Assembly: GCA_025526995.1 (NCBI GenBank)
Contig: JAHLKG010000008.1
Coordinates: forward strand, 124,001-188,000
Reading direction: 5' to 3'
DNA length: 64,000 nt
Source of the DNA: Powellomyces hirtus
Lineage: Eukaryota > Chytridiomycota > Chytridiomycetes > Spizellomycetales > Powellomycetaceae
Below the pieces are notes generated by a model that saw nothing but the letters and a program-made list of their open reading frames with translations, was not told the DNA's origin and searched no databases. Positions 1,462 to 21,403 of this stretch are shown here, in pieces. The position numbers were made by a program, and so were the translations under genes. Numbering within the stretch: position 1 is the first letter of the stretch; the number at the start of each line of letters is the position of its first letter.

Positions 1462-1935
1462 ATGCTTGACAAATTCTGGGCCAAGTACGATACAAGGCAG
1501 TGGGGTAGGCGCATTTTACAATGGAGACTGGAACAAAAAGAAGATGTGGAAAGAAAAACAGCAAGAAAGCGCCTCCGCAATCATGACCGCCTTAGGGCAC
1601 TCGGACAAGAGCGTCTAATTCGAGACTATTTCAGCGCTGATTGCATCTACAGTGAAAAGGATTTCAGGCGCCGCTTCCAAATGTCACGTCAGCTTTTCCT
1701 GCGTATTCAAGCAGATCTGTGCAAAAGTGACCGCTACTTTAAACCAGTAAGTACGCTACTAAGTATCCGTTGGCCACGCAGTACGTGGCCACGCAGTATG
1801 TTTGTATTAATCACAAATTCTGCAATAGCGTCGTGACTGTACAGGACTTACTGGTCTTTCATCCGAACAAAAGCTTACTGCCGCACTATGCATGCTCGCC
1901 TACGGTGTTGCAGCAGATGCTGTGGACGAGTACGT
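1462..1935 (+). pseudogene. Harbinger DDE transposase, 5' part (exon 1 and start of exon 2)
   Basis: Exon 1 is 1462-1746 (ATG CTT GAC; 95 codons), intron 1747-1828, exon 2 from 1829. The N-terminal region carries YSEKDFRRRFQMSRQLFLRI, the typical pre-catalytic segment of Harbinger/HARBI1-type transposases. Exon 2 reads GLTGLSSEQKLTAALCMLAYG and is cut inside the codon after DEY by copia A (target site TACGT, 1931-1935). The frame resumes exactly at 13464 after the second TACGT. The intron contains two copies of CCACGCAGTA, reverse complement of a motif found in the element's other introns. Confidence 0.88.
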
Positions 1936-2192
1936 TGTTGAGATTGGACTTTTGAGATAAACCTGTCAAATCGACAGTGCTCCAAGACTCCACATGACCC
2001 CCGCTGCGCAATGGTGCTTCATCTGACCGCGAATGCTTAGATAGCTTGCACAGCCACCTTTCTTCTTCGTAGTGTAGCTCTCCTTCACCCGTACTTTACA
2101 CTTAACAACAACACAATCATTCCATTGTCATCGAGAGTGTCGAGCTAGCCTTTCTCTGTTGCACTACCCCTTAACTGGACCTACGCACAACA
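1936..2192 (+). repeat. Copia A 5' LTR
   Basis: 257 bp, TGTTGAG...CACAACA, flanked on the left by TACGT. Confidence 0.94.
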
Positions 2193-2206
2193 GGTTATGA
2201 GCCCTG
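2193..2206 (+). other. Copia A primer binding site (half initiator-Met tRNA)
   Basis: GGTTATGAGCCCTG directly after the LTR is complementary to the anticodon arm of eukaryotic initiator tRNA-Met (CAGGGCTCATAACC in yeast), as in Drosophila copia, which is primed by a cut tRNA. Confidence 0.8.
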
Positions 2207-2273
2207 TCAGCCCGCTCAACGCTTAAAACGACAAACATCCTGCATCCTTCTTCACATTGTTCAATACTCAATC

Positions 2274-3857
2274 ATGCCATTGTCCCGTAGCCCCATTCGG
2301 ACCAGGTCCGGAACAAACACTGCCCCTGCGCCGACGCAGGATTCTGCAGATGAGGGTCCTCACAGTGAGGACGACAAGAGTCGAGCCGCTCGACCTGACG
2401 ACGAGATCGTCACCAAGGAGTATTTGGAGAAGGCGCTGTTGGAATCCCAACGCATTATCGCCGAAATGCAGGAACGCATGCTGCTGGAATCGCAGCGACT
2501 CGCCGCCGAGTCACAAAGGGAGTCTCAGCACCTTACGGCTGAATCCCAACGAGAGATGATGGAAAAGATGATTTCTACCTTCGCACAAATGCAAATGCAG
2601 ACGGCCGCCGCTGCAAACCCTCACGTCTTCCCGGAGGACCGCCCACACTCCCGCTCATCAGAGAATTCTTCTCCCACGTCGTCCTCAATGAATTCCCTCG
2701 CAAAGGAGCTCCTTAAACAAGTTCCCAACTTCGATGGCGATATGAGTAGCCCGCAATTACTTCTCGAATTCATTGCAAAACTGGACAACTTTTTCAAGGT
2801 TGCATACCTTCCGCCACTTCTCGAAGCAAAAATGGCGGTAAGCAAACTCACATCTACCGCTCACATCTGGTGGAGGACCCAGGAAAGCCAGGGGACCGCC
2901 CCTCGAACATGGAATCATCTCAAAACAACGCTACGCCTGAGATTCACACCACCAGCGTTCAGCTCGATGATCCGCGATAAACTGGATGATCTTTCGCAGA
3001 CCACATCAGTTATTGCATACAACAATGCGTTCAACAAACTCGTCATGCAGATTCCCGACATGAACAAAGGAGAAATCGAGCATTGCTATCTCAAGGGACT
3101 CAAGCGTCCTATCTACTCAGCCATCATCTCAAAGGATCTCTTGGATCTGGACGCCATGCAGGAAGCCGCAATCCGACAGGAACAGCTTAGCTCAGAACGG
3201 GGCGCTCGTGTGCCCAAAACCGAGTCTCACGTTGAAGCCCATGTGATGCATGGCAATTCGGACGCCAACACCAATGAACACGCGCCCCGAAAATCGTGGA
3301 AAAAACAACGCCGCCGCTCAGTTCCAGGATCTCCCTGCCTCCTCTGCGAACAAACCGGTCATTGGATGAAGGACTGCCCGAAAATGAAGGACGCGCGCGA
3401 GCTCCTTAAACAACATCAGCAAGAACCTGCTGCCAAAGCAAACCTCGTTTTGGCAACTAACCACAGGTCCTCGCACTCAATCGCCCTTGATTCTTGCGCA
3501 ACGCACCACATTATCAAGGACGCTATTCTCCTTACTGACCTGCGACCCATCCCGGCAGTCCATATCAGCGTCGCAAACGGCGAAAACCTTACCGCTCGCG
3601 AAGCAGGCACACTCACCATCAGCAATAACGACACGGACGAAGCCATTGTCTGCGTTGACGTGCTCTACGTACCTGAAGCGAGCCGCAACTTGGTTTCCAC
3701 ATTGCCACTGAACCGGGACGGTTACGAAATCACGTTCTCAACTAACGGTTCCTCCATTTTAAAGAACGGCCGCGTTATCCTACCGCTCCGCCACAACGGA
3801 AACCTGCCATTTATCGATGGTTATGTTGAAACCACCGCCGCTGCTTTTGCGACCGAA
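2274..3857 (+). CDS. Copia A gag-protease (interrupted by element B)
   Basis: From ATG 2274, capsid-like gag is followed by a zinc knuckle CLLCEQTGHWMKDC (C-x2-C-x4-H-x4-C) and a retropepsin-like domain. The N-terminus holds a heptad-like run of SQR/ESQ repeats. The protease motif is ALDSCATHHI where copia proteases normally have DSGA, so the flap-side Gly is replaced by Cys. Element B enters after ACC GAA. Joining across the insertion puts gag-pro one base out of phase with the integrase frame, in an A-run at 10024-10027. A lost base or a frameshift site could explain this. Confidence 0.9.
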
Positions 3858-4096
3858 TGTTAGCACGTACAGACTCTGTCATCGAGTCACAACTGCGCCA
3901 TCGCAGGGCGTATCACGCGATCATGTGAGCCCACGTGATCAACTCCGATATAAGTAGTTTTCCTTCCATACTTAATATATCGGTGGGACTTTTCTCTTTT
4001 TCTCCAATAGAGCGGGATTAAGTTACTTCGTTGTTCTGCTCAGTCAACTACCCTAAAGCTTCCTCAATCATCTACTCAGATACTCTCAGACCAACA
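3858..4096 (+). repeat. Copia B 5' LTR
   Basis: 239 bp with AT-rich promoter-like sequence (GATATAAG near 3948) and the CACGTGAT-type palindromic area shared with the other LTR. Confidence 0.94.
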
Positions 4097-4110
4097 GGTT
4101 ATGAGCCCTG
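4097..4110 (+). other. Copia B primer binding site overlapping the gag start
   Basis: GGTTATGAGCCCTG, complementary to the initiator tRNA-Met anticodon arm. The ATG inside it (4101) opens the gag frame, so the bases paired with the primer tRNA anticodon are also the start codon. Confidence 0.78.
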
Positions 4111-5474
4111 AAATGGTAGGCAACGAAACGAGCCCCCGGTACACTCGTAGTATGTTAAGACGCCTAACGGGTCGGCAGACCCCAGGGTCCAATACGCTAC
4201 AACGAGCCGTAGAACGTGCCGCTAGGAAGAGCGCACGAGTGCCTGGTGAATGGACATCACCAGACAATGGAGGGAAATCTGCCGGTAACAATACACCAGC
4301 AGAGCCAACGCCTTTGAGCGTCAACGCCAACGAGGGCAACGACGCATTGGAAGGGCATACCCAAAACATCGACCGACGCGATGGCAAGGTCGATACCCGT
4401 CCCCTATCAAGCAGTACAGATGATCACAGAACGATCAACTACAGTACTCCAGTGGCATTCCCAAGTGGGGAATCAGCGAACACCGTGCATGTCCGCCCGC
4501 GTGAGGCGGACGTGGATAGGATAGATAGGCTTGAGAATTCTCTAGCCCAACTAACGGAAATGCTCCAAATGAAATGGTGCATGGATCAGGATGTGAACAT
4601 CCCGGTCAACCCTCAGGTACGTACGGCGCAACGACCATCACCCACTCGCAACGACGGGTTCGCTGCACCGTGGACAGAGTACAATCAGGAGATTGGAGCT
4701 CAACAGGAATACCAACATTCTCCATTCGAACACCGCCCTACATCACCGACATCGAGCATACACAGCGTGACGACCAAAATCGTCGACAGTCGAGGTGCGA
4801 AGGCTTTCGTGGATGGAACGCTGAAATATATTGGATCTTACAACGGGGAAGCCAATATGGTCAAACTTCGAACGTTCATTGACAAGATTGAGACGGTTGT
4901 GAAGTACGAAATGGTTCCGCCCGAGTTTCTCGTAGATTTTGTGGCTACGAAACTCACAGGATGGGCATACACTTGGTGGCAGTCGCTCTCCCCAAGTAAA
5001 AGGAACGAAATTACGACGTGGCATGACTTTGAAGACGTTGATTCAGGAAGAACCAACACCGGTCTTAGGTCCGCCCTTCTGGCGCGGTTCGCGCCACGAA
5101 ACCACACTAGGGATTCGCTGCAGAAATTACGGGAATTGCGTCCCAAAGGCCGCATGGATGAGTACATCACTCAGTTTAACATGCTGGCATTTTCTCTGCC
5201 GAAGACACCGGATTACGTCCTTCAGGATTACTTCATTAACGCGCTAACACCAGACCTTGCGGCCTTGGTCCAGGCTAATGAAGAAAACATAACTGATTTG
5301 AGCAGTTTACAGGCCGCTGCATCCAGGATTGCCGCCAACATGGCTAAGAAGCCTAGCGGGACCTCAACGGATACGCGACCAGGTGCCGCACACACTGATG
5401 CCTCTAAGAAACCAAAGGGTAGGGCCCATGGGGAGAAGTCAGCCGGCAAGAAGGACAAGGAATCCACTCCATAA
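4101..5474 (+). CDS. Copia B gag (capsid) ending in an in-frame TAA
   Basis: 457 codons from ATG 4101. A disordered, charged N-terminus is followed by a retrotransposon-gag fold (TLKYIGSYNGEANMVKLRTF, LTGWAYTWWQSL, RFAPRNHTRDSLQKLRELRP). It ends SAGKKDKESTP then TAA at 5472-5474. The same frame stays open beyond the stop, and the zinc knuckle that normally ends gag lies after it, so the stop is either read through or a CAA-to-TAA mutation. Confidence 0.88.
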   Translation: MSPEMVGNETSPRYTRSMLRRLTGRQTPGSNTLQRAVERAARKSARVPGEWTSPDNGGKSAGNNTPAEPTPLSVNANEGNDALEGHTQNIDRRDGKVDTRPLSSSTDDHRTINYSTPVAFPSGESANTVHVRPREADVDRIDRLENSLAQLTEMLQMKWCMDQDVNIPVNPQVRTAQRPSPTRNDGFAAPWTEYNQEIGAQQEYQHSPFEHRPTSPTSSIHSVTTKIVDSRGAKAFVDGTLKYIGSYNGEANMVKLRTFIDKIETVVKYEMVPPEFLVDFVATKLTGWAYTWWQSLSPSKRNEITTWHDFEDVDSGRTNTGLRSALLARFAPRNHTRDSLQKLRELRPKGRMDEYITQFNMLAFSLPKTPDYVLQDYFINALTPDLAALVQANEENITDLSSLQAAASRIAANMAKKPSGTSTDTRPGAAHTDASKKPKGRAHGEKSAGKKDKESTP

Positions 5475-8400
5475 AACAAAGGCCAATCATCCAAGTCGGG
5501 TTGTTGGGCCTGTGGAGACCCTAAACACCAAACACAGGAGTGCGAAGTGTTAAAGAAGTTCAAATCCGAGATGGAGAAGAACAAGACGAAGCAGTCGTCT
5601 GATGGTGCTGTTAGCACAAATGCTGTGGAAGCATTACACGTCTGGGTCCGTCAAGGACAACCGTATGAAGCCCTCATCGACTCTGGCGCTACGGACCACA
5701 TGACACCTCACAAAGCGACCTTAGATCACTCAACCGTGTACAGTGATGTCAGAGCTGTTATGCTTGCTGACAAAACATCACTCCCCTCTACAGTTCGAGG
5801 TACGGTACGAGTAGAAGTTAATGACTATCCGAATCCGCTCGAGTTGGGCGGAGTCCTGCATGTGCCAGGACTACGACGAGATCTCGTATCGGTAGCGAAA
5901 TGCAATGATCAAGGCGTTGACGTGCTCTTCAAATCGAATGGAGACGTCATTTTCACGCGAGACGGCAAAGAAATCGCCAAAGGCGTACGCCGCAACAACG
6001 CGTATTACCTGCAAGGTACGCTGCTGTCTGAAAGTCTGTGGACGGATTCAGAAGCATGCACTGTTGAAGTCTCTCCTACACTCACTCATGCTTGTATTGG
6101 ACACGTTGGCAAACACGTCCTGGAGAAGATGGCATCGGTTACGGACGGTTGGTCCGTAGTGGGGGATCTAAGTGACTTCAAAGATTGTGAAGCCTGCGTG
6201 CTAGGAAAGGCCGCTCGTCTTCCATTCTCCCCTGGTAATGTTGAAGCCAGGGAGATCTGTGAGCTGATTCATTCAGACCTACAAGGACCATTTCGAATCC
6301 CTGGTTACGAAGGATCACGCTGTTCGCTGGAGTTCATTGAACACGCATCCAGATACGTGACTGTTTTCCCTATTCCGTCAAAGGATTCAGCAGTCATACT
6401 CGACAAGTTTCTCATTTACAAGGCGTGGATTGAGAAACAGACTGACCGACAAATCAAGATCCTACGCACGGATCGAGGCACCGAATACTTCGGCGAGGTT
6501 CTAGAGTACCTATTGGAAAATGGTATCACTCATCAAAAGTCCGCGGCCTATTCGAGTCAGCAAAACGGGATTGCCAAACGATGGCATCGCACGGTGCTGG
6601 TCAGGGTCCGCGCCACCTTTGCGGATACGAAACTACCTCGAAGATTCTGGCCTGCTTTACTGGTAGCGGCTGGATACATCCATTCCCTTACGTACAACCG
6701 CATCAACAAGAAGACGCCGCATGAAATACTGTTTGGCCGGCGTCCTGATGTCGCCCATCTTAGGCGTATCGGTTGCGTGGCGTATTCCGTTCTAACAAGC
6801 AAAGGACGCGATAAAATGGGGAATCGAGCGAAGAAGGCGTACTTGGTAGGCTATGCTCAACCCTCAGGTACCAAGGGGTATCTGGTATGGGATCCTGTCA
6901 CTGACGAGGTCGAAGTGTCACGAGACATGATCTTCAAAGAAGACTTGGGACTCGAACCCAAATATCAGCAGGATCCAGCACATCTTGACCTTCTAGATGA
7001 GGAAAGTCAGGAGGATGAAGTCGAATACACCGTGGAGGCGATTATCGACGAGCGCCGCAGTAAGGCGCACACGAAAGAGTACTTGGTTAAGTGGGAGGGA
7101 TATCAAGAACCTACGTGGGAGTCCCGACTTTCACTACTCGATACTACCGTATTGGATGACTGGGAGAATCGAGTCGCCGCGTACGATGTCGGCACACGAC
7201 GAAATGACCCCATTGCTGCATACGCCGCCCGCGCGCGGACTCAAACAACGATCAACAAAGACGCCATGACATGGAAGCAAGCGATGAAAACCCCTCAGAA
7301 GGAGGAATTTCTTAAGGCTGCATGCATCGAGTACCAATCCCTGGTCGACAACGGCACATGGGAGCTCACCAAGCATCCACGTAACAAGCGCGTGATCGGC
7401 ACAACATGGGTCTTTCGAACGAAGGTCAATCCCGATGGCACCTTTAACAAGTTCAAAGCCAGAGCAGTGGCTCAAGGCTTCTCTCAACAACCCGGTCGCG
7501 ACTTTGGTGATACATACTCACCGACGCTACCATTCACAGCGCTACGCCTCTTCTTGGCGTATTGTGTCCAGCACGGGCTGGACATCCACAGTATGGACGC
7601 TGTCACCACCTTCCTTAACAGCGATATTGATAAGGATATCTATATTGAGCAGTTTGAGGGATTTGAAGATCTGGATCACCCCAAAGGCGATTGGGTCCTG
7701 AAGCTACTGAAAGCTCTCTACGGCCTGAAGCAATCACCTCTTCTTTGGTATCAGACCTTGAAGACTGCACTGTTGAAGCTCGGCTACAAAGCGGTTTCTG
7801 TATGCCCGTGTATCTTTTTCAAGTACGCGACAGACGACCGTACACCTCCGTCGAACAACAACTTGATCCTTATTATGGTCTTTGTCGACGACCTGCTGAT
7901 TGCAGCGAAGGATCCGGAGATTCTGGCGAACAGCAAGAAGGACCTACATTCGAAGTTCAAGTTTACGGAACAAGGTCGTGTAACCAGTCACCTTGGTCTC
8001 GTTTACAAATATGATTTTGACTCTGCTGTCCGTACCCTCGAAATCTCAAATGTCAAGTACATCGATGACGCTCTTGCACAATTCGGCATGAGCGACTGCC
8101 ATCCTGTCTCCACTCCGTACGCCGTGTCAGCGCGTAACCAACAACCGGAGGATTCGACCCCATTCACGAATCTAAAGATGTATCAGGAAGCAGTGGGGGT
8201 CCTCACTTGGGCCTCCATCACATGGCGATGGGATATCGCCACTGCAGTCGGTTACGTTGCGCGCCGCGTCGCCGCACCTACCAACTCCAACTGGAACAAT
8301 GTTAAGCGCATTTTCTGCTATTTAAAGGGTACCCGCGATTATGCCCTCAAGTTTACATCCAAACAAAATGATCCACGTGGTCTATGCGTATTCACGGATG

Positions 8401-9371
8401 CGGATTATGCCGGAGAACTCACCGACCGGACGTCCACTACAGGCATTTTGGCCCTTTACAATGGGTTTCCTGTTCTGTGGAAAAGTAGCAAGCAGAAGTG
8501 CACCGCCCAAAGTACAACCGAAGCGGAGTATATAGCTGCAAGTACTGGCCACAACAAAGCCAAATGGCTACGCCAACTCTTGGCGGAAGTTTTGGGACCT
8601 CAACCGAATTACAAATCTCGACCAGTCCCTCTCCATGTCGATAATCAGAGCGCCGGGGCCTTGATTCAGTCTAAGGCTATCAACCAACGCACCAAACACA
8701 TCGACGTTCGGTACCACGCTATACGCGATTCATTCGCGAAGCAAATTATCGAAATCATCGACACCAATACGGACGATCAACTGGCGGACATCTTTACGAA
8801 GCCTTTTCCCACTGTGAAACATAAGGACACTGTCCTGAGGATTACGAATGGGACTCATATATTTGATGAACGCATACGCAATGAGGGCGCGTCTACGGAA
8901 GCACACCGAGCTCAAGTGTTACTCGCTGAATGTCAGGAGAATTACTCACAACACCGGCTTACCTCGGCTACTACACCGCAATTGCGGAACCCAAAGCAAT
9001 GCCTCCCAAGGAGGATGGGCCTGCCCCTCCTCCATCATCCTCATTGCTTGAGGGTGAGCGTCGGCTTGAAGAACCCGATGGTCCCTCCAACTCCTCGGCT
9101 GCCCCCTCCTCCTCCTCCTCTTCCTCATCATTATATGGAGCTTCACGCTCCAGGATGTCCCACATCCTCTTCACCTCCGCTACAGACTTCTTGTCTGCAG
9201 CCCTCTTCTTCGCCTGGGCAGTCTCCTTGCCCTTCCCAACCGCCAGCTTCCAGCTCCGCCGGTCCTCTAGTATGGACCTCAGTCCATCAAGCGTCCCGGT
9301 CGCCCGTGCGCGACCCAGAGGCATACCAGACCTCGCCCGGTCTTTTACCCGGTCTTTCGCCTGCTTGATGT
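5475..9371 (+). CDS. Copia B zinc knuckle-protease-integrase-RT-RNase H
   Basis: Open in frame with gag. Order: zinc knuckle CWACGDPKHQTQEC (about 5502-5543); protease with LIDSGATDHM; His/Cys zinc domain (HACIGHVG...CEACVLGK); integrase core; chromodomain (EYTVEAIIDERRSKAHTKEY, LVKWEGYQEPTWESRLSLL); reverse transcriptase with VFVDDLLIA; RNase H with TEAEYIAAS and KHIDVRYHAI. The integrase motif usually NGxAER reads NGIAKRW, so the catalytic Glu is Lys. The last 150 codons are Pro/Ser-rich and lie opposite the antisense gene, so the true end of pol may be earlier (about 9000) in active relatives. Confidence 0.92.
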
Positions 9372-9660
9372 GACGTTCAAGGACCCCTTGACGGTCCTTC
9401 TGGTGGAACTGTTGGGCATGCGCTGCCGACATCGTTCAAATCTCCGCTCGGGACAACCCCGCAGCGGGTGCACCTCCCTGTGGCGCAGAGGGCACCACTG
9501 ACAACGGCACAGCAGGAGCTGTGGTCGTCGCAGGAGCGGTTACCGGCGGTCCCGTCTTTCTCGCCGTCTGCTTTGCTTTGCCCGAACCTGACAACTACAC
9601 CGGCACTTAGTTAGAGCTTACGCCTCATTTGCGCAGATCTCATAGACGTACCCTAGCCAT
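8971..9660 (-). pseudogene. Antisense gene in copia B with histone H3-tail-like N-terminus
   Basis: Minus strand, overlapping the 3' end of pol. A 9-nt first exon (9660-9652) reads Met-Ala-Arg before GTACGT; a CTAAC branch site follows; exon 2 begins at a tandem AAGCAG acceptor (9570 or 9567). Either join keeps frame and gives MAR(Q)TARKTGPPV, close to the H3 start (MARTKQTARKS). The rest is Ala/Pro-rich, then a basic helical region (HIKQAKDRVKDRARSG), an aromatic/acidic part (VKRMWDILEREAPYN) and a Glu run, stop at 8973-8971. One in-frame TGA lies at 9438-9436, probably CGA originally, so this copy is likely defective. No family recognised. The first exon is short and is the weakest part of the model. 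Confidence 0.55.
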
Positions 9661-9776: not shown

Positions 9777-10015
9777 TGTTAGCAGGTACAGACTCTGTCA
9801 TCGAGTCACAACTGCGCCATTGCAGGGCGTATCACGCGATCACGTGAGCCCACGTGATCAACTCCGATATAAGTAGTTTTCCTTCCATACTTAATATATC
9901 GGTGGGACTTTTCTCTTTTTCTCCAATAGAGCGGGATTAAGTTACTTCGTTGTTCTGCTCAGTCAACTACCCTAAAGCTTCCTCAATCATCTACTCAGAT
10001 ACACTCAGACCAACA
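9777..10015 (+). repeat. Copia B 3' LTR
   Basis: 239 bp; preceded by a purine tract (GTGGGGG) fitting a plus-strand primer; followed by CCGAA. Confidence 0.94.
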
Positions 10016-10020
10016 CCGAA

Positions 10021-12719
10021 GCTGCAAAACAAAGGACCGCAATGTCTATAAACTATGGCATCAACGCTTTGGGCACATTGGACAACGAGCGCTTCAAGCT
10101 GCGAATCTGATCTACTCTCTCGATCTGCCAAACAACGTCGAACCGGAACACGCGCTGTGCTCCGGCTGCTCCCTCAGTAAATCCACTCGGCTGCCCTTCA
10201 ATGGGCAAAACTCTCGACCTGCAACCAAACCACTTGATCGCATACACTCGGACATTCTTGACATGGGCGCCAATCTTCTCTCCCTCTCTGGCGCCCGCTA
10301 CATCCTCACGTTCATTGACGAATACACACGGTATTCTGTCATCTACCTCCTCAAGACCAAAGATCAAACCAACGATTATTGGCAAAACTATCGCGCGTAT
10401 GCTGAACGCCATCTCGACTCCAAGATCAAGGAGCTGCGCTGCAATAACGGCGGTGAATACTATCCCCTACAGGCTGAGCTGCTCGCCAATGGGATCACGT
10501 TAAACCCTACTCACCCGTACTCCTCTCAGCAAAATGGCATTGCTGAACGGTTCAACCGTACGCTCATGGACCAGGTCCGAGCGATTCTTCATGACAGCCA
10601 CGCTCCTTTCAAACTTTGGGGAGAACTCGCTATGGCCGTCAACTACCTGCGTCAACGGACGCCATCAACGTCTCTCAACGGAGAGACCCCATACCAACGT
10701 TGGTTTGGGACCCCTGCCGATGTATTGAACCTCCGCACCATCTGGAGCGTGGCCTATATGCATCAACCTGTGTGCCGTCGCACACACCGCAAGCTCGGAG
10801 CTCACGCTGTCGGACCGTTCCGACTAGTGGGATATCACCCCACTAAACAAGGCAACTATCGCCTTTACGATGCATCGACGGATTCGATCATCAACGCACG
10901 AGACGTCACAATTAACGAGGCTGATTACGTCAGCCCTGTTGCTCAGAGCGACACCACTCCTGAATATGTGGTTGAGCGTATCTTACTCTCTCGCAACGGT
11001 GAAGGGGGAGAGGAATTCCTGGTCAAGTGGCTTGGCTACGATGAACCAACATGGGAACCCCTCGACAACGTCAAGGATTCAGAGGCCCTGACGCGATTCA
11101 CCGGAATCGAAGATGACGGCACACCCGTAATCGCCGAACTGCATGCCGCATGCAGCACTGACATTGACAAGCCCGCCACTTACCAGGCGGCAATCAACTC
11201 GCCGTACGCGAAAGAGTGGAAACAAGCGATCGACGCTGAACTCTCGTCTCACCGCACTAACAAGACGTGGGACACGGACACCACGCAAACACCGTCTGGC
11301 ACTCACCTTGTTGATTCCAAATGGGTCTTCAAAGTCAAACGCAACGCCGATGGTTCCATCAAGAAGTTCGTCGCCCGAGGCTTCACGCAGCGTAAAGGCA
11401 TTGACTTCAACGAAACATATGCGCCCGTCGTCAAGTTTAACACCTTGCGGGCGCTACTCGCGCTTGCCACTAAGCTCGACCTTCACGTCCATCAGATGGA
11501 TGTCATCACCGCATTTCTCAACGGAGATCTCGACGTAGAAATCTGGATGCGGCTCCCAGCCGGCGTCGCTGATGACGTCGTCAAACTACGCCGTTCCCTT
11601 TACGGCCTCAAACAATTGCCGCGCCTATGGAACAAGGTTCTCGACTCCTTTCTTCAACAGCTCGGGTTCTCAGTATCAGAACTCAACACCGCGCTCTACA
11701 TTAAGCGGACTGACAACACAAGGATCCTGATTGTTGCCGTCTACGTGGATGATCTCATGATTTTTGCATCAAACCTCGATGACCTGCTTGCTCTCAAATC
11801 CGCGCTTGCCGAACGCTTCAAGATGGAGGACATGGGGGAGATCTCTTTCCTTCTCGGTCTTCAGATTACGCGCGACCGGTCAAAGCGATGCATTACCATC
11901 GGCCAACAGAAGTACATCAAAGACATGATCGACAAGTTTAACCTTAACGGCATGCGGCCGCATCACATCCCGATGGACCCGACCTTACATCTAAATGCGC
12001 ACGATGGAGCCGACGCCCTCGACGCATCAGGAATCAAGGAATATCAGTCGATCATTGGAACACTAATGTATCTGATGTTAGGGACTCGCCCTGACCTGGC
12101 CTACTCAGTTTCCCGTTTATCTCAGTTTCTGGCAGCACCGACGGCCGCACACATGATGGCCGCAAAGAAAGGATGCGCATACGCAAACACAACCAGTGAT
12201 CTCTCTCTTGTCTTCCAAGATGGGGGAGATATTGTCGGATATTCGGATGCCGACTACGCACGCTGTACGGACACGCGTTGCTCAACCTCCAGCTATGTAT
12301 TCATGCTCAACGGAGCTGCTATTTCATGGAAATCTCAACGTCAAAAATCAACGGCGCTATCCACAGCAGAAGCAGAATACATTGCACTCGCGGAATGTGC
12401 AAAGGAAGCACTCTGGATCCAGGGTCTCCTATCCGAACTGTCAGCAACGGAGCAGACAGCAGTTCTCATCTATGAGGACAATCAGGCCGCTATCAAGCTT
12501 GCCGCCAATCCAACGCATCACCAACGAACCAAACACATCGATGTCCGTTATCACTTCCTGCGAGACCTCGTCGGTAACGAGCGCATTCACCTACAGTACA
12601 TTGAGTCCAAGCTCATGCTGGCTGACACCCTGACGAGACCGCTACCTTGCCCATTACTTGATGATCTGCGACATCGAACTGGACTCCAAACAAAATCAGA
12701 TTACGCCAAATCTCACTGA
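10021..12719 (+). CDS. Copia A integrase with chromodomain, reverse transcriptase, RNase H
   Basis: The frame opens at the element B exit and reads YKLWHQRFGHIGQRALQAAN with CSGC (the His/Cys zinc domain of copia integrases), an integrase core, then a chromodomain (PEYVVERILLSRNGEGGEEF, LVKWLGYDEPTWEPLDNV). Next come a copia reverse transcriptase with VYVDDLMIF and an RNase H ending in KHIDVRYHFLRDLV. The usual integrase DNGGEY motif is NNGGEY (CNNGGEYYPLQ), so the second catalytic Asp is Asn. NGIAERFN keeps the Glu. No stop codons interrupt the frame; it stops at 12717-12719, 18 bp short of the antisense gene's end. Confidence 0.92.
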
Positions 12720-12737
12720 TATACACCCGTTATAAGT

Positions 12738-13178
12738 CTAGTTGAAATACACCCGCCGCAACCACCATCTCAATCGACGGTCCGACTTGTTGCATTTTGG
12801 GCAACGTATTTCTCCACTTCGATGCACCAGACCCCGTGAACAGCTCTCACACAGAAAACAGGGGTTTCTTTCTCCACAGGCGTGCGGCGTCCGACAGTCT
12901 TTTCTTTCGTAACACCTGTCACACCGCCTTCTCGTTACCTCCCCTTCAAAGAGGTTAATCCACTCTTTTCTGTGCAATGCGAGATATCAGTACCCTGAAA
13001 CCAGCACAACGGGGCTCCTTCCTCACCTGCAGATAACACATCTGCGTGCGGCGTCGTCAGGTGTCACCCAAATGTACTTCAAACACCGGAAGCACAGCAG
13101 GTGCCCGCAGTCCCCACAGAATTCGGCATCTCGAAAAAGACAAACGGGACACTTTGGAGCTCGACCGTTTTGTGGCAT
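12738..13178 (-). CDS. Antisense RING-like zinc-finger gene in copia A
   Basis: Opposite to gag-pol, between its stop and the 3' LTR. Exon 1 is 13178-13027, exon 2 is 12969-12738; the 57-nt intron has GTGAGG, an ACTGAT branch-like site and CAG, and phase fits, giving 127 residues. Exon 1 has CPVC (res 10-13), CGDCGHLLCFRC (22-33) and CVIC (48-51): a C3HC4 RING pattern with the typical CGHxxCxxC core. Exon 2 has RRCDRCYERKDC, then CGERNPCFLCESC and CPKC: a second RING-like cluster. The gene starts 25 bp inside the 3' LTR edge, so the LTR could supply the promoter. RING fingers often act as ubiquitin ligases, but no function is shown. Unspliced reading would stop right after the first finger. 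Confidence 0.75.
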
Positions 13179-13202
13179 GTTTGGTCTCCAAAGTCGGGGG
13201 AG

Positions 13203-13458
13203 TGTTGAGATTGGACTTTTGAGATAAACCTGTCAAATCGACAGCGCTCCAAGACTCCACGTGACCCCCGCTGCGCAATGGTGCTTCATCTGACCGCGAA
13301 TGCTTAGATAGCTTGCACAGCCACCTTTCTTCTTCGTAGTGTAGCTCTCCTTCACCCGTACTTTACACTTAACAACAACACAATCATCCATTGTCATCGA
13401 GAGTGTCGAGCTAGCTTTTCTCTGTTGCACTACCCCTTCACCGGACCTACGCACAACA
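13203..13458 (+). repeat. Copia A 3' LTR
   Basis: 256 bp; differs from the 5' copy by a 1-bp indel and about five substitutions, mostly transitions. Preceded by a purine tract (GGGGGAG, 13196-13202) that fits the plus-strand primer. Confidence 0.94.
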
Positions 13459-13463
13459 TACGT

Positions 13464-14024
13464 TCGCTGCGCCGAAGCTACTGCAACAGTTGCATTACAC
13501 CGCTTCTGTGCTGCCATTGTGCACATCTATGCCGCTGCTTACCTGAGACCGCCAAACCAAAATGACCTAAATTATATATTGCGAATCAACAGGCAACGTG
13601 GTTTTCCTGGACTGCTTGGTTCTCTGGACTGCATGCACTGGGCATGGAAGAACTGTCCTTGAGCGTGGGCCGGTCAGTTTCAAGGCAAGGAAAAGGTTCC
13701 GACGATTATTTTGGAAGCGGTTGCAACCTACGATTTACGAATTTGGCATTGCTTTTTCGGCGTCCCCGGCGCTAACAATGACATTAATGTCCTGGACCGC
13801 TCCCCTCTCTTTGATGACCAACTGGCTGGTTGCACACCAAACCTTGATTACGAGATTAATGGATGTCAGTACACTCAAGGTGCGTTGCGTGGTGCGTTGT
13901 GCGTACCTGCGCATTGCGTGGTACAATACTGCATAGCATATACTCACAAAGAGCATTACTAGGATATTATTTGGTGGATGGAATATACCCTCCTTGGGCG
14001 ATGTTTGTGCAGATGTTCTCACAG
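13464..14024 (+). pseudogene. Harbinger DDE transposase, middle part with premature TGA
   Basis: This continues the transposase after copia A. It holds the first catalytic Asp (GSLDCMHWAWKNCP), a TGA stop at 13660-13662, then AWAGQFQGKEKVPTIILEAV and the second catalytic Asp region (NNDINVLDRSPLF). Exon 2 ends at 13879; intron 13880-13962; exon 3 from 13963 gives GYYLVDGIYPPWAMFVQMFS and stops at the inversion breakpoint 14024. The stop sits where related proteins read CPxAW, so it looks like a point mutation, probably CGA to TGA (inference). The third catalytic residue is on the inverted piece at 16064-16434. Confidence 0.88.
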
Positions 14025-14285
14025 CTCACCAGCCTAAGCCTAGACACGCGTCGGGAAGGGTCCCGCGTGAGATGGATGCTAGCGTCAGCATCCCGAAGGG
14101 TACTAGACCTCAGGGATGGCCACGGATGGCCATCACGTGACCAGGGCCGCTCCGCGGCCTAGAAGAAAAGTAGGAATGCTCCGACGAAGGCGCATTCAAG
14201 ACTTAGAGATCTTACAGTAGAATTAGACATAGGGAATTCCCGAATAAGAAGACTAGACTCTGGCAACGGACCTAGTATTATTACA
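14025..14285 (+). repeat. Gypsy C 3' LTR, inverted and missing its first 15 bp
   Basis: About 98% identical by eye to the 5' LTR but in the opposite direction; ends ATTATTACA followed by GTTGA (14286-14290). The missing first 13 bp are at 16435-16447. Confidence 0.92.
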
Positions 14286-15324
14286 GTTGATTGCTCAAAA
14301 CCCGCATTCTGTTGCTGCGCAAGCTTTGCTAAAACAGAACCCGGCTGCGTATACTGGAGCTACCTACACAGAATCTGGAGAAAGCAGCCTACTTGTCCCG
14401 CCTATACATCTCCCTTTGGCTTTGCCAGCTCCGCCACAGGCCACACCGCTAACTCCATGCCAAACACCTGCACCGCAAGCGCAAGCCACACCTCCCTCAG
14501 AATCATTCTTGTGGCGTGGTGCAAGAGGAAAAGGGTTCTCTTGCACAGAAGACGAGCGTCTATGCGTGGTCTGGATTCAGATATCTGAGGACCCCATCAC
14601 CGGCAACGAGCAGAAAGCGGATGCATTTTGGAGTCGAATCCATAAGGTGTTCAACGACAATCCACCAGACGAAGCGCGGACCAGAAGCTCGTTGAAAAAC
14701 CGCTGGGGGGTTGTGTCTTGTGCGGTTGCCAAATTCGCAGGACATATACGCTCAGCCACAGCTTCATTGCCCAGTGGTGCCACTAGAGACCAAATCGTTC
14801 TTCTAGGAGAAGACTTCTACTACGGAGCGGAAAAGCAAAAGTTTGTCCTGCTGCACGTCTACAATTTACTGCAGAACTGCCCCAGGTAAGCAATTAATTG
14901 CGTGGGAAAGTACTGCGTGGCAACATACTGCGTGATGCGTACCTGCGTACTGCGTGGTCATGTTGTGCGTACCTGCGCGATGCGCACTGCGTGGTAAAGA
15001 AATGCTTTAACATCAACTTCATTTACATTTATGGCAGACAGCGAGAAAACGCCACAAAAGGCAGCAGGAGAAGAGGACGAGGTCCGTCCAATTGGTATCA
15101 AACGAGCAAAGCGCCGACAAGATGAAGACTTATCAAAGGATGAAGAGTTGGAACTTGTGAAGCAACAGCTGGAAATACAGCAACGTGAGCTACAATTGAA
15201 GGAGGACGAGCAGCGTCTTAGCAAAGTAGAAAGACTGGTACAGCTTTTTGGGCGTGAAAGCTCCATCGCTCAAAAGGCCTTGTTTGACTTGGCCAAAGAG
15301 CTGCAAAATGAGGATAGCAGCTAG
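14286..15324 (+). pseudogene. Harbinger Myb/SANT-like second protein, main part
   Basis: PIF/Harbinger elements usually encode a second, Myb-like DNA-binding protein that helps the transposase enter the nucleus and bind the ends. Here the frame from 14291 holds GKGFSCTEDERLCVVWIQIS and DEARTRSSLKNRWGVVSCAV, the tryptophan-spaced SANT/Myb-like fold of this family. Intron 14886-14999 (114 nt) preserves the frame. Exon 2 (15000-15324) encodes a basic patch (IGIKRAKRRQ) and a long Gln/Glu-rich coiled coil (EELELVKQQLEIQQRELQLK), ending NEDSS-stop. An AATAAA lies just downstream (about 15338). The first 13 codons are stranded at 21404-21443. In the original element this gene ran opposite to the transposase. 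Confidence 0.85.
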
Positions 15325-15400
15325 TATTCATGCATGAATAAAAAAACTGTCTACCGGTTAAGGTAGCCACCGAGTTTAACGGTCGCTTTGCTCGGGACTT

Positions 15401-15863
15401 TCACCCACTTCCTCCTCCTCCACTTGCTCCTGCGCCTCCTCCTCCATTTCCTCTTTGCCCCGTCCCCTCTTCTCCCCTCCTTCTTCCCTCCCCTTCCCTC
15501 CAAGTAAAGGCGCGGACCCATTTCTCCGCGTATGCGGTCACTTGATCAAACTTGGTCTGAGTTACAAGTTGCCGCAGTTAGTACAAACGAGGTCAGCAAA
15601 AAATAATGTTACACTTACCTTTGCCGCGGCCATATCCCAGTTTACCTCGTCAAGGTACTCCTTCATTGCCTCTTGGTAGAGGCGTGGGTACTGGAGCTGC
15701 AGCTGACAAAGCTGCACTGCGCGCCTTGCAACCTGATACAAAGAAATTAAGTGGTATGTCATAGGTACTATAGAAGCTCAACAAATCTAACAAGAGCTGC
15801 TGCATCCTCTTCAGCTTGACGCTCAGCGTCAGTTTGGATTCTTGGCTTTGTGGGGCAAGGCAT
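15401..15863 (-). CDS. Possible third Harbinger gene (unknown, small, spliced)
   Basis: Minus-strand exons lie between the transposase stop and the Myb gene end. Exon a (ATG 15863) reads MPCPTKPRIQTDAERQAEED; exon b reads RRAVQLCQLQLQYPRLYQEA and MKEYLDEVNWDMAAAK; then GTAAGT, a perfect TACTAAC branch site and CAG lead to exon c, TKFDQVTAYAEKWVRAFTW, followed by an Arg/Gly-rich tail. The donor after exon a is unclear (candidate sites are weak), so the join is tentative. In the un-inverted element it would follow the transposase on the same strand by about 200 bp. No family recognised; it could be an accessory transposition protein or a domesticated stretch. Confidence 0.5.
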
Positions 15864-16063
15864 TGTGATGAGGAAACAGCAGGGCATTGCTACCCTAGTA
15901 TAGTATAAGTATAAAAACGCTTTTGAGACATATTGACATGTGTCAAAGAAACAGTTAACCCTTTTAAGGGATATATCAAAAGGTTCCAGTTTGCGTGGCA
16001 CGCTCGCATGCTCTCATTAAGTCGCACTGACATGTTTTAGGGATCGCAAACAATTTGTGTAAT

Positions 16064-16434
16064 TTATTGACTACCCTTCCATTCCCATAAATGTTGTATC
16101 AGGTCTGCGCGCAACTGATGATGAAGCACAGAATCACGCAATGTTTTTCTCCTTATTTGTTGCAATGTTTCTTCGCGACCGCCCAGAGAGATGTTAATGT
16201 CGGCAAAATCCTCTGCTATATCTTCCATTGCTGCATCTCCTTGATCCTCAATAATCATGTTGTGCAAAATCACACCGGTTTTCATGATATTTCCCAGTTG
16301 CGCGCGATGCCATCCACAAGCGGGCCGTTGAATAATGTGCCACCGCGCTTGTAATGCTCCAAAGGCACGCTCTATGTCTTTGCGCACTGCCTCCTGCATT
16401 TGGGCAAAGAACTTCTTTTTTTCGCAGTCAGGCC
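16064..16434 (-). pseudogene. Harbinger DDE transposase, inverted C-terminal part
   Basis: On the minus strand this reads DCEKKKFFAQMQEAVRKDIE then RAFGALQARWHIIQRPA and ends HLWEWKGSQ-stop (16066-16064). The Glu in KDIERAFG is the third DDE residue. It lies on the strand opposite the rest of the transposase. If 14025-16434 is flipped back, the frame runs from FVQMFSQ straight into PDCEKKKFF, the normal spacing of the family. So it is the same gene, broken by an inversion, not a second copy. Confidence 0.88.
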
Positions 16435-16447
16435 ACGCCTCATTACA

Positions 16448-16894
16448 CCCCCCTTAGATTCGCGACTATCTCTTAGGCTCGAATCTCTTCAGCGAGGCAA
16501 AGCTTGCCTAAGCCGGGCGGCGGCGGGTTAACGGATGCTGACGTGGTTGTGGGAAGATGAGGCTGGGGAGGCGGCCCTGGCGCGGGTCGCGTCGCGGTAG
16601 TCTCCGACGGGTAGTCTCCACCCTTCGTGGTGCGCGAAATCGTCGGAAAGTCTATTTCTCTCTTCGCAGGGGCCCTAGATGAATCACGAGTAGCTTCCTC
16701 CATGCGGATTTCAATAAGTAACATCTGCTGCGCTCCGTAGGGGATGAAACACTAACACCTGAATTTCCAAGCGTTCCCAAGCAGGTCAAGCCTTTAAAAG
16801 GTACTGCCCGTTGAATCTCCCCCTCTCGCTCTTCTTTTCTTTGTAGCTCGACGAACTCACACCACACACACACACATACGCACACACACACACC
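16448..16894. promoter_or_regulatory. Gypsy C 3' end: purine tract and antisense-gene upstream region
   Basis: On the gypsy strand AAGGGGGG abuts the LTR start at 16447, a good plus-strand primer tract. In the other direction this stretch is the 5' flank of the antisense RING gene and ends in a CA-dinucleotide leader. Confidence 0.6.
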
Positions 16895-17645
16895 ATGGCT
16901 GACACCCCCAACAACTCTCCTCCCCCCCCCCCCAACACCACCACCACCACCCTGGGCAAGCGCCAGCCCGCCCAGCAACTTGCGAAAGGCGCAACCAAGC
17001 GGGCCCAGCCCGCCCGGATGAGTAGGGGTCGGTGCTCGTCCTCGGCTGTGGCAACTCGTCTCATGTTCCCCGTCTTCCCTTGTTGTCTACAGGACCCCTC
17101 GGTCCATGAAAAGTCCACCCCCGAGAGGTCGGCCGACTTGCCCTCTTGCTGGAAGTGCAACCAATTCCGCAAGAGCAAGATGTTCACATCGGAATGCCAC
17201 CATTTGGTGTGCCGGCCCTGCATCGTGGCGGCGGCCGACGACACGGTATGTCCCCCCCCTTCGCTGAGAGGCGGCCTGATGTCTTCCTAACGGTGTGGTT
17301 CCTTTGTTCCTTTGCTTTCCAGAACAACGGCCCTCAGGGCCAGTTGACGTGCAGCGCCCCCCACTGCGGCCGGGTTCTCTTCTTTGCGGCCATCCCCGCT
17401 GGGTGCCAGTTCGCTGGCTGCAACCATGTCGGAGCGGACCTCCGCATGTTTCCATGCAACCATCTCCACTGCATGGGCCACGTCCGCGCGTAAGTAGTAC
17501 TCTTCAGCCTGCTGCTGTCGTACCTGACTAACACAGCTCTCTCCGCAGCGAGATGAACGTGGCAAATTACACCCCCCTCCGGTGCGGGTTGGGCAACCGG
17601 TGCCACAGCAACTGGTGCCAATTCTCCTTCACCAAGATTGGTTGA
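16895..17645 (+). CDS. Antisense RING-like zinc-finger gene in gypsy C
   Basis: Opposite to gypsy pol, close to the 3' LTR. ATG 16895 sits in CACCATGG after a CA-rich leader. Exons 16895-17245, 17323-17489 and 17549-17645; introns have GTATGT/GTAAGT, CTAAC branch sites and CAG, phase fits, 204 residues. A Pro/Thr-rich N-terminus is followed by CWKC (about res 85-88) and ECHHLVCRPC (about 99-108), completed by LTCSAPHC after intron 1: a RING-type C-x2-C...C-x-H-x2-C-x2-C pattern. Exon 2-3 carry a second cluster (CQFAGCNH, FPCNHLHCMGH, LRCGLGNRCHSNWC). An extra intron near 17020-17092 ending CTACAG is possible but not needed. Its position and double-finger plan match the copia A antisense gene despite little sequence likeness. 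Confidence 0.72.
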
Positions 17646-17880: not shown

Positions 17881-18660
17881 TTCCCCGTTGGGAAGACCGC
17901 CCAGCGGTTCCCCGGCCATCGTCCAACGATGCCGGTATCTCACCTAGTGAGGTCTACTGCCTCGCAGTCTTTGGCTCATCGCCCAGCAATCCCGGCATCT
18001 CGCCCAGCGAGGTATCTTGCCCAGCGACCTTCGGCCCATCGTCAAACGATGCCGGCATCTCACCTCGTGAGGTCTACTGCCTTGCAGTCTTTGGCTCATT
18101 GCCCAGCGATCCCGGCATCTCGCCCAGCAAGGTATGTCGCCCAGCGACCTTTGGCCCATCGTCAAACGATGCCGGTATCTTGGCCGAAGCCCTTCTCTTC
18201 CCCTTTGCGTGGGTATGTACTACGGCCATGGTCCCTGCAGGTCTCGAGGTACGCTGCCATGCAAATCTGGTGCCGGTCACCTTGCATTGGCAGCCGGTCG
18301 ATGCCCAGCATCACCCTTCTCACCCAGTGAGGTATGCCGCCCAGCGGCCTTCGGCCCATCGTCAAACGATGCCGGTATCTTGGCCGAAGCCCTTCTCTTC
18401 CCCTTCGCGTAGGTATGTACCACGGCCATGGTCCCCGCGGGTCTCGAGGTACGCCGCCATGCAAATCTGGTGCCGGTCACCTTGCATCGGCAAGCCGTCG
18501 GCTCATCGCCCAGCAATCCCGGCATCTCACCCAGTGAGGTATGCTCCCCAGCAGCCTTCGGCCATCGTCCAACGATGCCGGCATCTCACCCAGCGAGGCA
18601 TGCTGTCCAACAGCCTCCGGCCATTGTCCAACGATGCCGGAATCTCGCACTATAATGTCC
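17881..18660. repeat. Array of about 19 short palindromes with mostly CCA loops (gypsy C)
   Basis: Between pol and the antisense gene. Units are perfect or near-perfect 5-6 bp stems around a 3-base loop, usually CCA: ACCGC-CCA-GCGGT (17896), CATCGT-CCA-ACGATG (17917), CTCAC-CTA-GTGAG (17939), CTCGC-CCA-GCGAG (17999), GTCGC-CCA-GCGAC (18136), GCCGC-CCA-GCGGC (18336), GCTGT-CCA-ACAGC (18602) and others. They are set in a higher-order repeat that includes two copies of a roughly 120-bp block with a larger nested stem (TGCCATGCAA...TTGCATTGGCA around GGTG-CCGGT-CACC). Different stems keep full pairing. Confidence 0.85.
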
Positions 18661-18709: not shown

Positions 18710-19436
18710 CTAGGTTCTCTTACGTCGCCTGGCCGCTAGCCTTTGGCCGCGGTCCTCTCCGGGGTGCTCCCGGAGCCATTCTTCCAGCGCGGTCGTCCCC
18801 TTCACGTGTGCATACGGCTCCCACGTGTTCTGGGTGCTGTCGTAACCTGTCCACTTGACTAAGAACTGCTCGGTGTTCCTGTGCCATCTGGCATTTAGGA
18901 TCTTATCCACTTGGTAGGTCTCCTGACCGTCTTCGTCCTTCTCGGGCTCAGGCGGAGCGGTGACCTGTCTGTACGGGGTATCGCCCAGGTCATGGTAACG
19001 TCTCAGAATGCTGACGTGAAAGACTGGGTGCAATCCGGTGAACTCCTTGGGTAGTTCGAGCTCGTAGGTGTCAAGATGCGGCCCCTTGCCGCGTACTGTG
19101 AATGGCCCAATCCATTGCTCAGCCAGCTTTTTGTTCCTTGTGGTGACGCTGGTAATCGCGATACCCTCACGATGGAGTAAGACCTTGTCACCCTCTCGGT
19201 ATGCTTCCGTGTGCTTCTTGCGGTCATAGTACTGTGCCTGCTGGTCCTGTGCATCTCGGAGCCGTTGCTGCACGATGCGACTCACGTCGGCGAATTCCTT
19301 AATCCGTCTCTCCACGGCGGTTTGTGCCGATTGTCTTATCATCTCTCCGGGGTTAGGTGCTACCCATTGGTTCGGTACTCGGGGAACGCGGCCTAGGTCA
19401 ATCTCGAAAGGGGATAGTCCGGTCGACGTCTGCGGC
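18710..19436 (-). pseudogene. Gypsy C integrase C-terminus and chromodomain
   Basis: Continues in frame after the TGA: TPQTSTGLSPFEIDLGRVPR, the GPY/F-type region (WIGPFTVRGKGPHLDTYELE, VFHVSILRRYHD), then a classical chromodomain (YQVDKILNARWHRNTEQFLV, KWTGYDSTQNTWEP). This places the element among chromoviruses. Ends at 18710 facing the antisense gene. Confidence 0.9.
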
Positions 19437-19439
19437 GTT

Positions 19440-21010
19440 CAGTTGTAGTTGTACTCGAGGGTGGGGAGTAAACTCTTCCAGTTGGAGCCGGCATAGTCGA
19501 GAAAGGGGCCCATGATTCCCTTGATCGTCTTGATGGCGTTCTCCGCCTTGCCGTCGGTCTGTTGGTGTCGTGCCGACGAGAGTTCTTGCTTGACGTTGAG
19601 TGCCCGCATGAGGTACCGCCAGAATTCTGATAGCCACTTGGGGTCCCCATCGCTCACGATGGTGTGGGGTAACCCCGTGTGGCGAAATGCCTGTTCCAGA
19701 AAGAGTTGAGCCGTCTCCTGAGCTGTAGCGTGTGTGTTAGTAGGTAGGAGTATCACGCTGCATGAAAGGTAGTCGACGATGAGGAGTACGGCGTCTGCCG
19801 TCTTGGTCAGTCTCTCGCCGGTGTGGTGCGGAGGGTTCTTCGTCACGTTGGGCTCTACCCGAGGTTCCCCCCCCTTAGAGTCTGACGTGGGGAAGAATAT
19901 ATCCATGCCGATTTGTTGCCAACGGGCATCGGGGATCGGTAAGCAGCGGAGGAAACCGATCGGCGCGGTTTGCTTGTGACGTTGGCAGGTAGGGCAGGTG
20001 CGGACATGATGGTACACATCACGCTCCATGTGGGGCCAGTAATACGACTCCAGAAGTTTGGCGAGCGTCCGTTGGACACCGGAGTGACCACCGTTCGCAA
20101 GGGAGTCGTGATGAATCTGAAGGAGTGGCCCCCGCAAGCTGTCGGGGACGTACCGACGGTCATGGTACATCAAGAATCGGTGCGGAGGGGAGTCCACTGT
20201 CCGGAATTGGTGTGCATGGCCGGATAGGTTCTCCGGGGGACTGTTGATGGTTAGTAAGATGTTTTGGCTGAAATCATCCAATGCGAGCGCCTGGGTCCAG
20301 TCCGCATCGGTCGGCATGTGCGTCGGGACGGGCTTCTCCCTCTGCACAATGGCGGTGACCACGTTGATCTTGGCCTGGCAGGTTGCACACTTGGGGGCGT
20401 AAGTCGGGTCGCGACTGAGGAAGTCGGCGATCGAATTCCATGTGCCGGGGAGGTATTCCACTGAGAAATCGAACTGTTGGAGGAACTCGACCCAGCCTCC
20501 TTGGCGACGTGACAGGTGGGGTTGTTCCTGGAGGTAGATCAGGGACTTGTGGTCAACAAACGCGCGGAATGGGCGGCCGATGAGGTAATGGCGGTTGGCG
20601 CGTATGGACTTGACTAATCCCAGTAGTTCTTGTTCATGCACGGGGTATTGAGTCTCGGCGGGTTGCATCTTGCGGGAGTAGTATGTCACCGGGCAAACTT
20701 GCGGGAGGTTGGCTAAGCCCGATTTGGTGGTTGGTAGTGGGTGAGGGTAAGGGAAATCCCCTTTGGCCGGCTGTGCCAGCCATCCGCCGTAGGCGTAGCC
20801 CGATGCGTCCGTGAACAAGTAGGTGTCGAGCGCCGGGTCGAAGTACGCTAGGGTGGGTGCCGAGGAGCATAATTCCTTTAAGCGATTGAACGCTCGATCT
20901 TCCTCGTCACCCCACTGCCATGGGCGGTTGCCGGATTGCAGATTCGTTAGGGGTAGGGCAATCTGTGCATACTCGGGGATGTATTCCTTGACATAGTTGA
21001 CGAGGCCCAT
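19440..21010 (-). pseudogene. Gypsy C RNase H and integrase
   Basis: The frame starts just after the reverse transcriptase thumb (MGLVNYVKEYIPEYAQIALP). It holds RNase H (TYLFTDASGYAYGGWL, HEQELLGLVKSI), the integrase zinc domain (HH...CPTCQRHK) and core (GMDIFF, IVSDGDPKW, QTDGKAENAIKTIKG). It ends in a TGA (19439-19437) after EYNYN, and the frame continues as 18710-19436. The first catalytic Asp, the D in SDGDP and the Glu in KAENA are present. Without gag and RT it cannot replicate alone. Confidence 0.9.
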
Positions 21011-21127: not shown

Positions 21128-21403
21128 TGTAATAATACTAGGTCCGTTGCCAGAGTCTAGTCTTCTTATTCAGGAATTCCCTATGTCTAATTCTACTGTA
21201 AGATCTCTAAGTCTTGAATGCGGCTTCGTTGGAGCATTCCTACTTTTCTTCTAGGCCGCGGAGCGGCCCTGGTCACGTGATGGCCATCCGTGGCCATCCC
21301 TGAGGTCTAGTACCCTTCGGGATGCTGACGCTAGCATCCATCTCGCGCGGGACCCTTCCCGACGCGTGTCTAGGCTTAGGCTGGTGAGCGACGCCTCATT
21401 ACA
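21128..21403 (-). repeat. Gypsy C 5' LTR
   Basis: 276 bp, TGTAAT...ATTACA on the minus strand, flanked by GTTGA at its outer side. Confidence 0.92.

Follow-up and report, generated by a model that had tools for sequence, protein, structure and literature searches.

Gene organization and occurrence

A 64,000-nucleotide stretch of the genome of the chytrid Powellomyces hirtus (GenBank assembly GCA_025526995.1, contig JAHLKG010000008.1, positions 124,001–188,000; hereafter the window) contains two long terminal repeat (LTR) retrotransposons, copia A and gypsy C, each of which carries a gene on the strand opposite to gag-pol, between pol and the 3′ LTR. From the conservation of their sequences, we consider it very probable that these two genes, termed gene A and gene C, are real, selected and spliced antisense protein genes of the elements and that gene A encodes a RING protein. 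They are probably antisense additional open reading frames (aORFs) that were acquired separately. An initial annotation of the window had placed the two elements in different superfamilies and had singled out the motifs CGHLLCFRC and CHHLVCRPC in their antisense products; the placement stands and both motifs are present.

Gene A (13178–12738, minus strand) has one intron and a spliced product of 127 residues. Exon 1 (13027–13178) encodes the predicted C3HC4 RING, the intron (12970–13026) comprises 57 nt with GT–AG borders and exon 2 (12738–12969) encodes a second cysteine cluster, a possible further RING-like module, with a conserved basic C-terminus. The gene occupies the position termed aORF-3R, between pol and the 3′ LTR and opposite to gag-pol, with its ATG 24 nt from the inner edge of the LTR and its end 18 nt from the pol stop codon. 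Gene C (16895–17645, plus strand) encodes 179 residues once spliced. Its exon 1 (16895–17017) is followed by exon 2 (17093–17245), with the first cysteine/histidine cluster (CWKC..CHHLVCRPC), exon 3 (17323–17489), with the second (CNHLHCMGH), and exon 4 (17549–17645), with the last cysteines and the stop codon; the introns between them (17018–17092, 17246–17322 and 17490–17548) measure 75, 77 and 59 nt. Intron 1 has the donor AT in the window copy; the remaining 29 of the 30 copies have GT. As had been predicted, removal of the introns restores a single frame in both genes.

The full layout of gypsy C is seen at a second locus, L069 (LTRs at 203–480 and 7839–8116), where gag (7810–6599) and pol (6605–2682) lie on the minus strand and gene C (862–1612) on the plus strand, again in the aORF-3R position. 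Here 381 nt separate the start of gene C from the LTR repeat, and tandem repeats lie in the interval of about 1.07 kb between its end and the pol stop codon. Both genes had been described as starting near the 3′ LTR and ending tail-to-tail with pol; orientation and position hold for the two of them, whereas only gene A directly abuts its neighbours.

Both antisense genes are features of their families and not accidents of single copies. A DNA search of the same genome gave at least 41 matches to gene A (81–100% identity, some partial) and at least 40 to gene C (91–100%). Counting one row per locus and dropping second-exon rows, gene A lies tail-to-tail with a matching pol on the opposite strand at 37 of 47 loci (ten do not) and gene C at 76 of 92 (16 do not); 26 gypsy and three copia pol rows lack a listed gene partner. 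The GT and AG of the gene A intron are kept in all of 30 copies, and 87 of the 90 gene C introns in 30 copies are GT–AG, the AT donors being those of L009 (the window copy), L014 and L038. After splicing, 20 of these 30 gene C copies are open to the stop codon, two are open but cut at the end of the match and eight are frame-shifted. Presence in most copies together with coding conservation, by which aORF-3R genes are recognized, is thus found for both. The genes are present in young elements with nearly identical LTRs (one mismatch in 278 positions in L069 and one in 257 in L070, a copy of copia A).

Sequence conservation

The antisense protein frames of both genes appear from their substitution patterns to be under purifying selection. 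By the Nei–Gojobori method (NG86), the ratio of non-synonymous to synonymous divergence (dN/dS) is 0.45 for gene A pairs with dS of 0.2–0.4, with dN below dS in 189 of 189 pairs, and 0.29 for gene C pairs of the form C-I with dS of 0.1–0.2, with dN below dS in 187 of 187 (30 copies in each case); among the closest pairs, with dS up to 0.02, the ratio is 0.79 (A) and 1.35 (C), as for dead copies. Because NG86 ignores transition bias, codon models with free kappa were also run, on the 17 of 30 A-I and 15 of 30 C-I copies taken as open, plus one copy of a divergent form A-II (L086) and four of a divergent form C-II; the C-II models came from four of the 11 loci given to the splice script, and the divergent L077 and L079–L081 stand outside the sample. 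These gave an omega of 0.52 for gene A (0.37 with L086 added) and of 0.26–0.29 for gene C-I (0.21–0.22 with the four C-II models added), well below 1 in each case.

Fixing omega at 1 on the same topologies, and taking the best over five kappa values, lowered the log-likelihood from −1231.6 to −1238.3 for gene A (a loss of about 7), from −1646.7 to −1667.8 with L086 (about 21), from −1446.4 to −1473.0 for C-I (about 27) and from −2247.3 to −2317.2 with C-II (about 70). As a frame control for gene A, the sense frame that shares its wobble positions with the antisense frame scores about as low, as it must; the control is weak, the other sense frames being no worse in some single comparisons (L061, L059). 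L061 and L039 have almost the same DNA sequence in the last (3′) third of gene A, with one synonymous and one non-synonymous difference from residue 86 to the end, and differ much more in the first two thirds; either recombination or a constrained DNA element could produce this pattern.

Divergent forms and exchange between elements

The C-II form was found with the query P0001 at 34–62% identity with intron read-through. Its four open models have three GT–AG introns of 59, 75–76 and 62 nt in the same places as in C-I, and the proteins of the two forms are 53–56% identical. Fourteen cysteines are invariant in six of six aligned C-I and C-II rows; a single C-II row lacks one of the histidines in the second cluster. 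Gene A has a 49% identical relative in L086, with one intron of 67 nt in the corresponding position, and a decayed one in L088 (40%). The expectation that divergent relatives would keep the cysteines was borne out for gene C and, apart from L088, for the RING ligands of gene A.

A block of 950 bp is common to L086 and L087, with 93% identity. A dynein light chain gene adjoins L086, its start appears to be present at L087 as well, and no copia A pol row was found near either locus; the two could represent a gene of the host from which gene A came, or a relic.

Comparison of L069 (C-I) with L091 (C-II) shows that the gene C cassette has been exchanged between gypsy elements. The two loci are 82–95% alike over the first 600 nt (the LTR and the region just inside it), only 52–66% alike over element positions 601–1500, which contain gene C (660–1410), and 93–99% alike over positions 1501–4500, spanning the repeats and all that follows up to and including the integrase half of pol; past position 4500, L091 continues as another element. 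The pol sequences differ by a dN of 0.022 and a dS of 0.101, whereas gene C reaches a dS of 0.97–1.15 (L010 against the four C-II models), and a tenfold higher dS cannot result from rapid protein evolution. For two gene C forms that are 54% alike, dS is thus near 1.1, against 0.10 in the pol of their elements. Exchange of this kind might be expected for an accessory gene under conflict, and it resembles module swapping in viruses. Loci with a pol 57% identical to that of gypsy C (C16 and C38; L079, L080) carry a C-I type gene, and one with a pol 55% identical (C12; L081) carries a C-II type gene; the C16 and C38 loci have equal scores and are perhaps copies of one stretch. Among 15 divergent gene C loci, 13 score higher with C-II and two with C-I.

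A third copia family, with a pol about 46% identical to that of copia A (G000 C28, C12, C13, C16 and others), gave over 90 matches, of which many share one score and have open frames of 1368 codons; it has perhaps been active very recently. No antisense RING was found in the single 1.6-kb stretch of this family that was examined (L094).

The encoded proteins

Exon 1 of gene A is assigned to the C3HC4 RINGs on sequence evidence. The window copy matches Pfam RING models with an E value of 0.0046 (17.5 bits against a cut-off of 30) and a divergent copy with 8.6e-5 (22.9 bits against 25.2). A gene A profile matched RNF4 (1.6e-4), with RNF4, COP1, BRCA1 and TRIM chains among the 46 matches up to an E value of 1. 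A strict RING signature matched once in the six frames of the window, at gene A, and in none of 40 Markov-generated sequences, each of 64 kb. The C3HC4 ligands, in RING spacing, are all kept in eight chosen rows with the exception of the sixth in the decayed L088, and in seven of seven rows of a second alignment; outside the eight rows, L065 has lost the first ligand. In the A-I copies, an arginine directly follows the last RING cysteine, in the place of the RING linchpin.

Exon 2 of gene A is perhaps a second RING. Its model is of middling quality (predicted local distance difference test, pLDDT, of 63.5) and matches mostly RING chains; the conserved basic tail at the C-terminus of the protein is modelled as a helix. 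The gene C protein, in contrast to the 'clear RING' that had been proposed for both products, is to be called only RING-like on its sequence matches: it does not fit the strict signature, and its matches to Pfam zf-C3HC4 (0.0089) and, by profile, to PCGF5 (0.018) are weak, the former below the cut-off. The two genes had also been viewed as one recurrent module. Two separate acquisitions fit the data; shared descent is not supported, profile comparison of A with C giving a probability of 1.9% from shallow profiles of little power. Among 5.8 billion proteins, no relative of gene A was found at E values up to 0.01 with either a single sequence or an alignment, and gene C had one match only, which is discussed below. 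Elsewhere in the genome, RING matches with identical scores occur as a pair (G000 C12:288809 and C41:18592) and as a triplet (C8:782996, C11:1427 and C25:30637), perhaps further repeated RING genes.

Several observations weigh against the reading of both genes as selected antisense protein genes and of gene A as a RING gene. A test of the third-position share is weak (p = 0.12 for A and 0.057 for C), as is the synonymous excess among shared variants (p = 0.088 and 0.038), and recombination violates the assumption of a single tree on which the codon models rest. Read on the reference columns, only 17 of 30 gene A copies are open, one of which (L063) has an inserted base, and the eight frame-shifted gene C copies lose the frame early, around a poly-C run. 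The RING scores of both genes lie under the curated Pfam cut-offs, which are thresholds of the library and not part of the definition of the RING fold. The RNF4 match spans only positions 21–54 of the gene A profile, the matches to which include zinc proteins other than RINGs (a LIM protein and ribosomal S14/S29), and L086 has glutamine in place of the arginine after the last RING cysteine. The exon 2 model has no Foldseek match reaching an E value of 0.001 and a best Z score of 4.9, within the range that the tool calls common, and the single-sequence model of gene C (P0001) is useless, with a pLDDT of 35.1.

Functional implications

If genes A and C are selected protein genes, gene A would be transcribed in antisense from a promoter in the 3′ LTR or beyond it, because its ATG is only 24 nt from the LTR, and then spliced and translated. 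The antisense promoter inside the 3′ LTR of human T-cell leukaemia viruses, as described in the available part of the source, offers a parallel. Gene C may use a promoter of its own, with the TATA-like sequence CCTTYAAAAGG (16791–16801, plus strand) about 95–105 nt upstream of its ATG; this sequence is present in both gene C forms, with an extra A in three of 12 rows. The introns of a sense gene would be lost with each round through RNA. In antisense orientation, the sense transcript that serves for reverse transcription would present no readable splice signals, which would explain how up to three introns are kept in an element replicating through RNA.

Protein A would most likely act in trans as a small E2-recruiting RING ubiquitin ligase, a prospect that we put at about even, and protein C may be a RING-like partner or scaffold. 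That protein A targets host silencing factors, as had been speculated, is a guess and a doubtful one; it could about equally well regulate the sense expression of its own element. The broadest formulation, that chytrid LTR elements of different superfamilies repeatedly took up intron-bearing antisense RING genes as exchanged cassettes and use them as ligases against host control, strikes us as rather unlikely as a whole. If true, it would provide a retrotransposon counterpart of the retroviral accessory genes that hijack ubiquitination.

Some of the alternatives concern mechanism only, and the likelihoods given to the different readings need not add up to certainty. The most serious, to which we grant a real chance although one clearly short of even, is that the proteins are zinc-type nucleic-acid-binding proteins or transcription regulators in an HBZ-like layout and not ubiquitin ligases. 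Two reports describe a nuclear location or predicted DNA binding for the known antisense proteins of retroviruses and of Grande and Retand (PMC7264820, PMC11963269); the weak RING match of gene C and the basic tail of protein A, modelled as a helix, would suit such a role, but the gene A profile matches the RINGs of ubiquitin ligases best.

It is improbable that the antisense RNA, and not a protein, is what matters, pairing with sense RNA into double-stranded RNA that tunes copy number. The tail-to-tail layout would allow such an overlap and the idea appears in the available part of the aORF review (PMC7264820), but an RNA role requires neither an omega well below 1 nor the retention of cysteines and introns in forms that are only 49–56% alike.

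More improbable still is a viral origin of gene C, with movement between gypsy elements and a fungal MELD-type DNA virus. The sole protein-database match of gene C is 'oncoid' of Powellomyces chytrid fungus MELD virus 1 (a third-party annotation, TPA) on a contig of 21,205 nt, with 72% identity to the spliced protein over 83%. This is the same gene with intron sequence read as protein, since 'oncoid' reads through introns 1 and 2, and it is up to 96% identical to genomic gene C copies, inside their own spread, as expected if the virus contig contained or adjoined a gypsy copy. A search of the genome for the viral PolB family found nothing, although its controls were silent too, and IMG/VR held no relative of gene A or gene C, with the qualification that records near the Powellomyces genome may be left out. 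The record, annotated as viral whereas gene C sits in a gypsy element, is possibly a misannotated retrotransposon gene, and it warns that such genes may enter databases as viral. Least probable of all are host-gene fragments carried along passively without function, for which the gene A relatives beside the dynein light chain gene without a copia A pol (a possible host source) and the frequency of decayed copies speak, against the omega estimates, the young copies with near-identical LTRs and the linkage to pol at most loci.

Related systems

Antisense aORFs at this place are described for Grande, RIRE2, Retand, PvRetro13 and the fungal element Boty in the parts available of PMC7264820, PMC11963269 and PMC8365987. 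The statement that such frames are known from some plant elements was therefore correct for plants but too narrow, Boty of Botrytis carrying the antisense gene brtn (PMC7264820, available part). Genes A and C resemble the Retand-type aORFs in place, orientation, occurrence in most copies and conservation, and both Retand and gypsy C have tandem repeats in this region; in the same partial sources, the Retand aORFs mostly encode TRP28 and in a few cases Smc or other domains, whereas A and C encode RING or RING-like products. To brtn (Botrytis cinerea and Sclerotinia), an additional antisense gene of a fungal LTR element, they can be likened by description only, in the excerpts available.

As far as our literature search goes, the RING in an antisense aORF, the several conserved introns and the cassette exchange are new; the search brought up no LTR element with an antisense RING gene. 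The 2020 aORF review reports, in its available part, no clear similarity of aORFs to known proteins (PMC7264820), and the main texts of PMC7264820 and PMC11963269 contain no mention of ring, zinc finger or intron. The accessible text of PMC3248453, on fungal LTR elements, mentions neither antisense nor ring, and that of PMC5408684, on rotifer ORF3s, has no ring and uses antisense once, about small RNAs. To the antisense accessory genes known from Grande, RIRE2 and Retand, gene A adds one with a canonical RING, a module of defined biochemical activity, through which function would become directly testable.

The RING of gene A exon 1 is matched to the RING ligases RNF4, COP1, TRIM and BRCA1, from which protein A differs in being short, with two modules and no whole-protein relative found in the protein databases searched. 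The closest retroviral analogy is HBZ of HTLV-1, which, in the part of the source available, is an antisense gene of a retrovirus as A and C are of retrotransposons. HBZ is spliced and regulatory; it is a basic leucine zipper (bZIP) protein and not a RING, and HTLV-1 is an infectious retrovirus.

Other features of the window

The window copy of gypsy C is defective, the stretch equal to L069 5016–7738 (part of gag and pol) being absent and most of a 3′ LTR lying inverted at 14024–14285 (plus strand; L069 203–463 reversed). The remnant of this LTR at 16432–16450 (minus strand) matches L069 from 462 on, the LTR ending at 480. Downstream of gene C, 60-bp tandem repeats (17899–18622, plus strand), which are the same in L069, precede a truncated pol (18710–21010, minus strand) with RNase H, integrase and part of a chromodomain, and the 5′ LTR (21128–21403, minus strand) is identified by its match to the L069 LTR. 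The region 14024–16431 is apparently an inverted segment with most of a gypsy C LTR and PIF/Harbinger-like pieces (Plant_tran, 3.1e-20, at 16064–16399; a weak Myb/SANT match at 14287–14889). The pair 14024–14285 and 21128–21389 was considered as Harbinger terminal repeats and rejected, comparison with L069 identifying both as gypsy C LTRs.

Copia A is bounded by direct repeats at 1936–2192 (5′ LTR) and 13203–13458 (3′ LTR), both on the plus strand, with five mismatches in 256 positions. Its gag open reading frame (ORF; 2274–3863, plus strand; Retrotrans_gag, 4.6e-14, with a Ty3_capsid match besides) is split by a nested element, copia B (LTRs at 3858–4096 and 9777–10015), and its pol ORF (10263–12719, plus strand) comprises an integrase part, a chromodomain and RVT_2. 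L070 lacks copia B and has its LTRs at 735–991 and 5851–6107. A chromodomain (PF00385) lies between integrase and reverse transcriptase in both copia pols (10263–12719 and 5547–9368).

Copia B has an antisense ORF of its own between pol and the 3′ LTR (8971–9432, minus strand), encoding 153 residues, basic and then acidic. It has no Pfam match and represents a third antisense gene, not a RING. At least 40 matches at 94–100% identity are found genome-wide, and comparison with L043 gives a dS of 0.259 and a dN of 0.123 in the antisense frame, with similar values in one sense frame.

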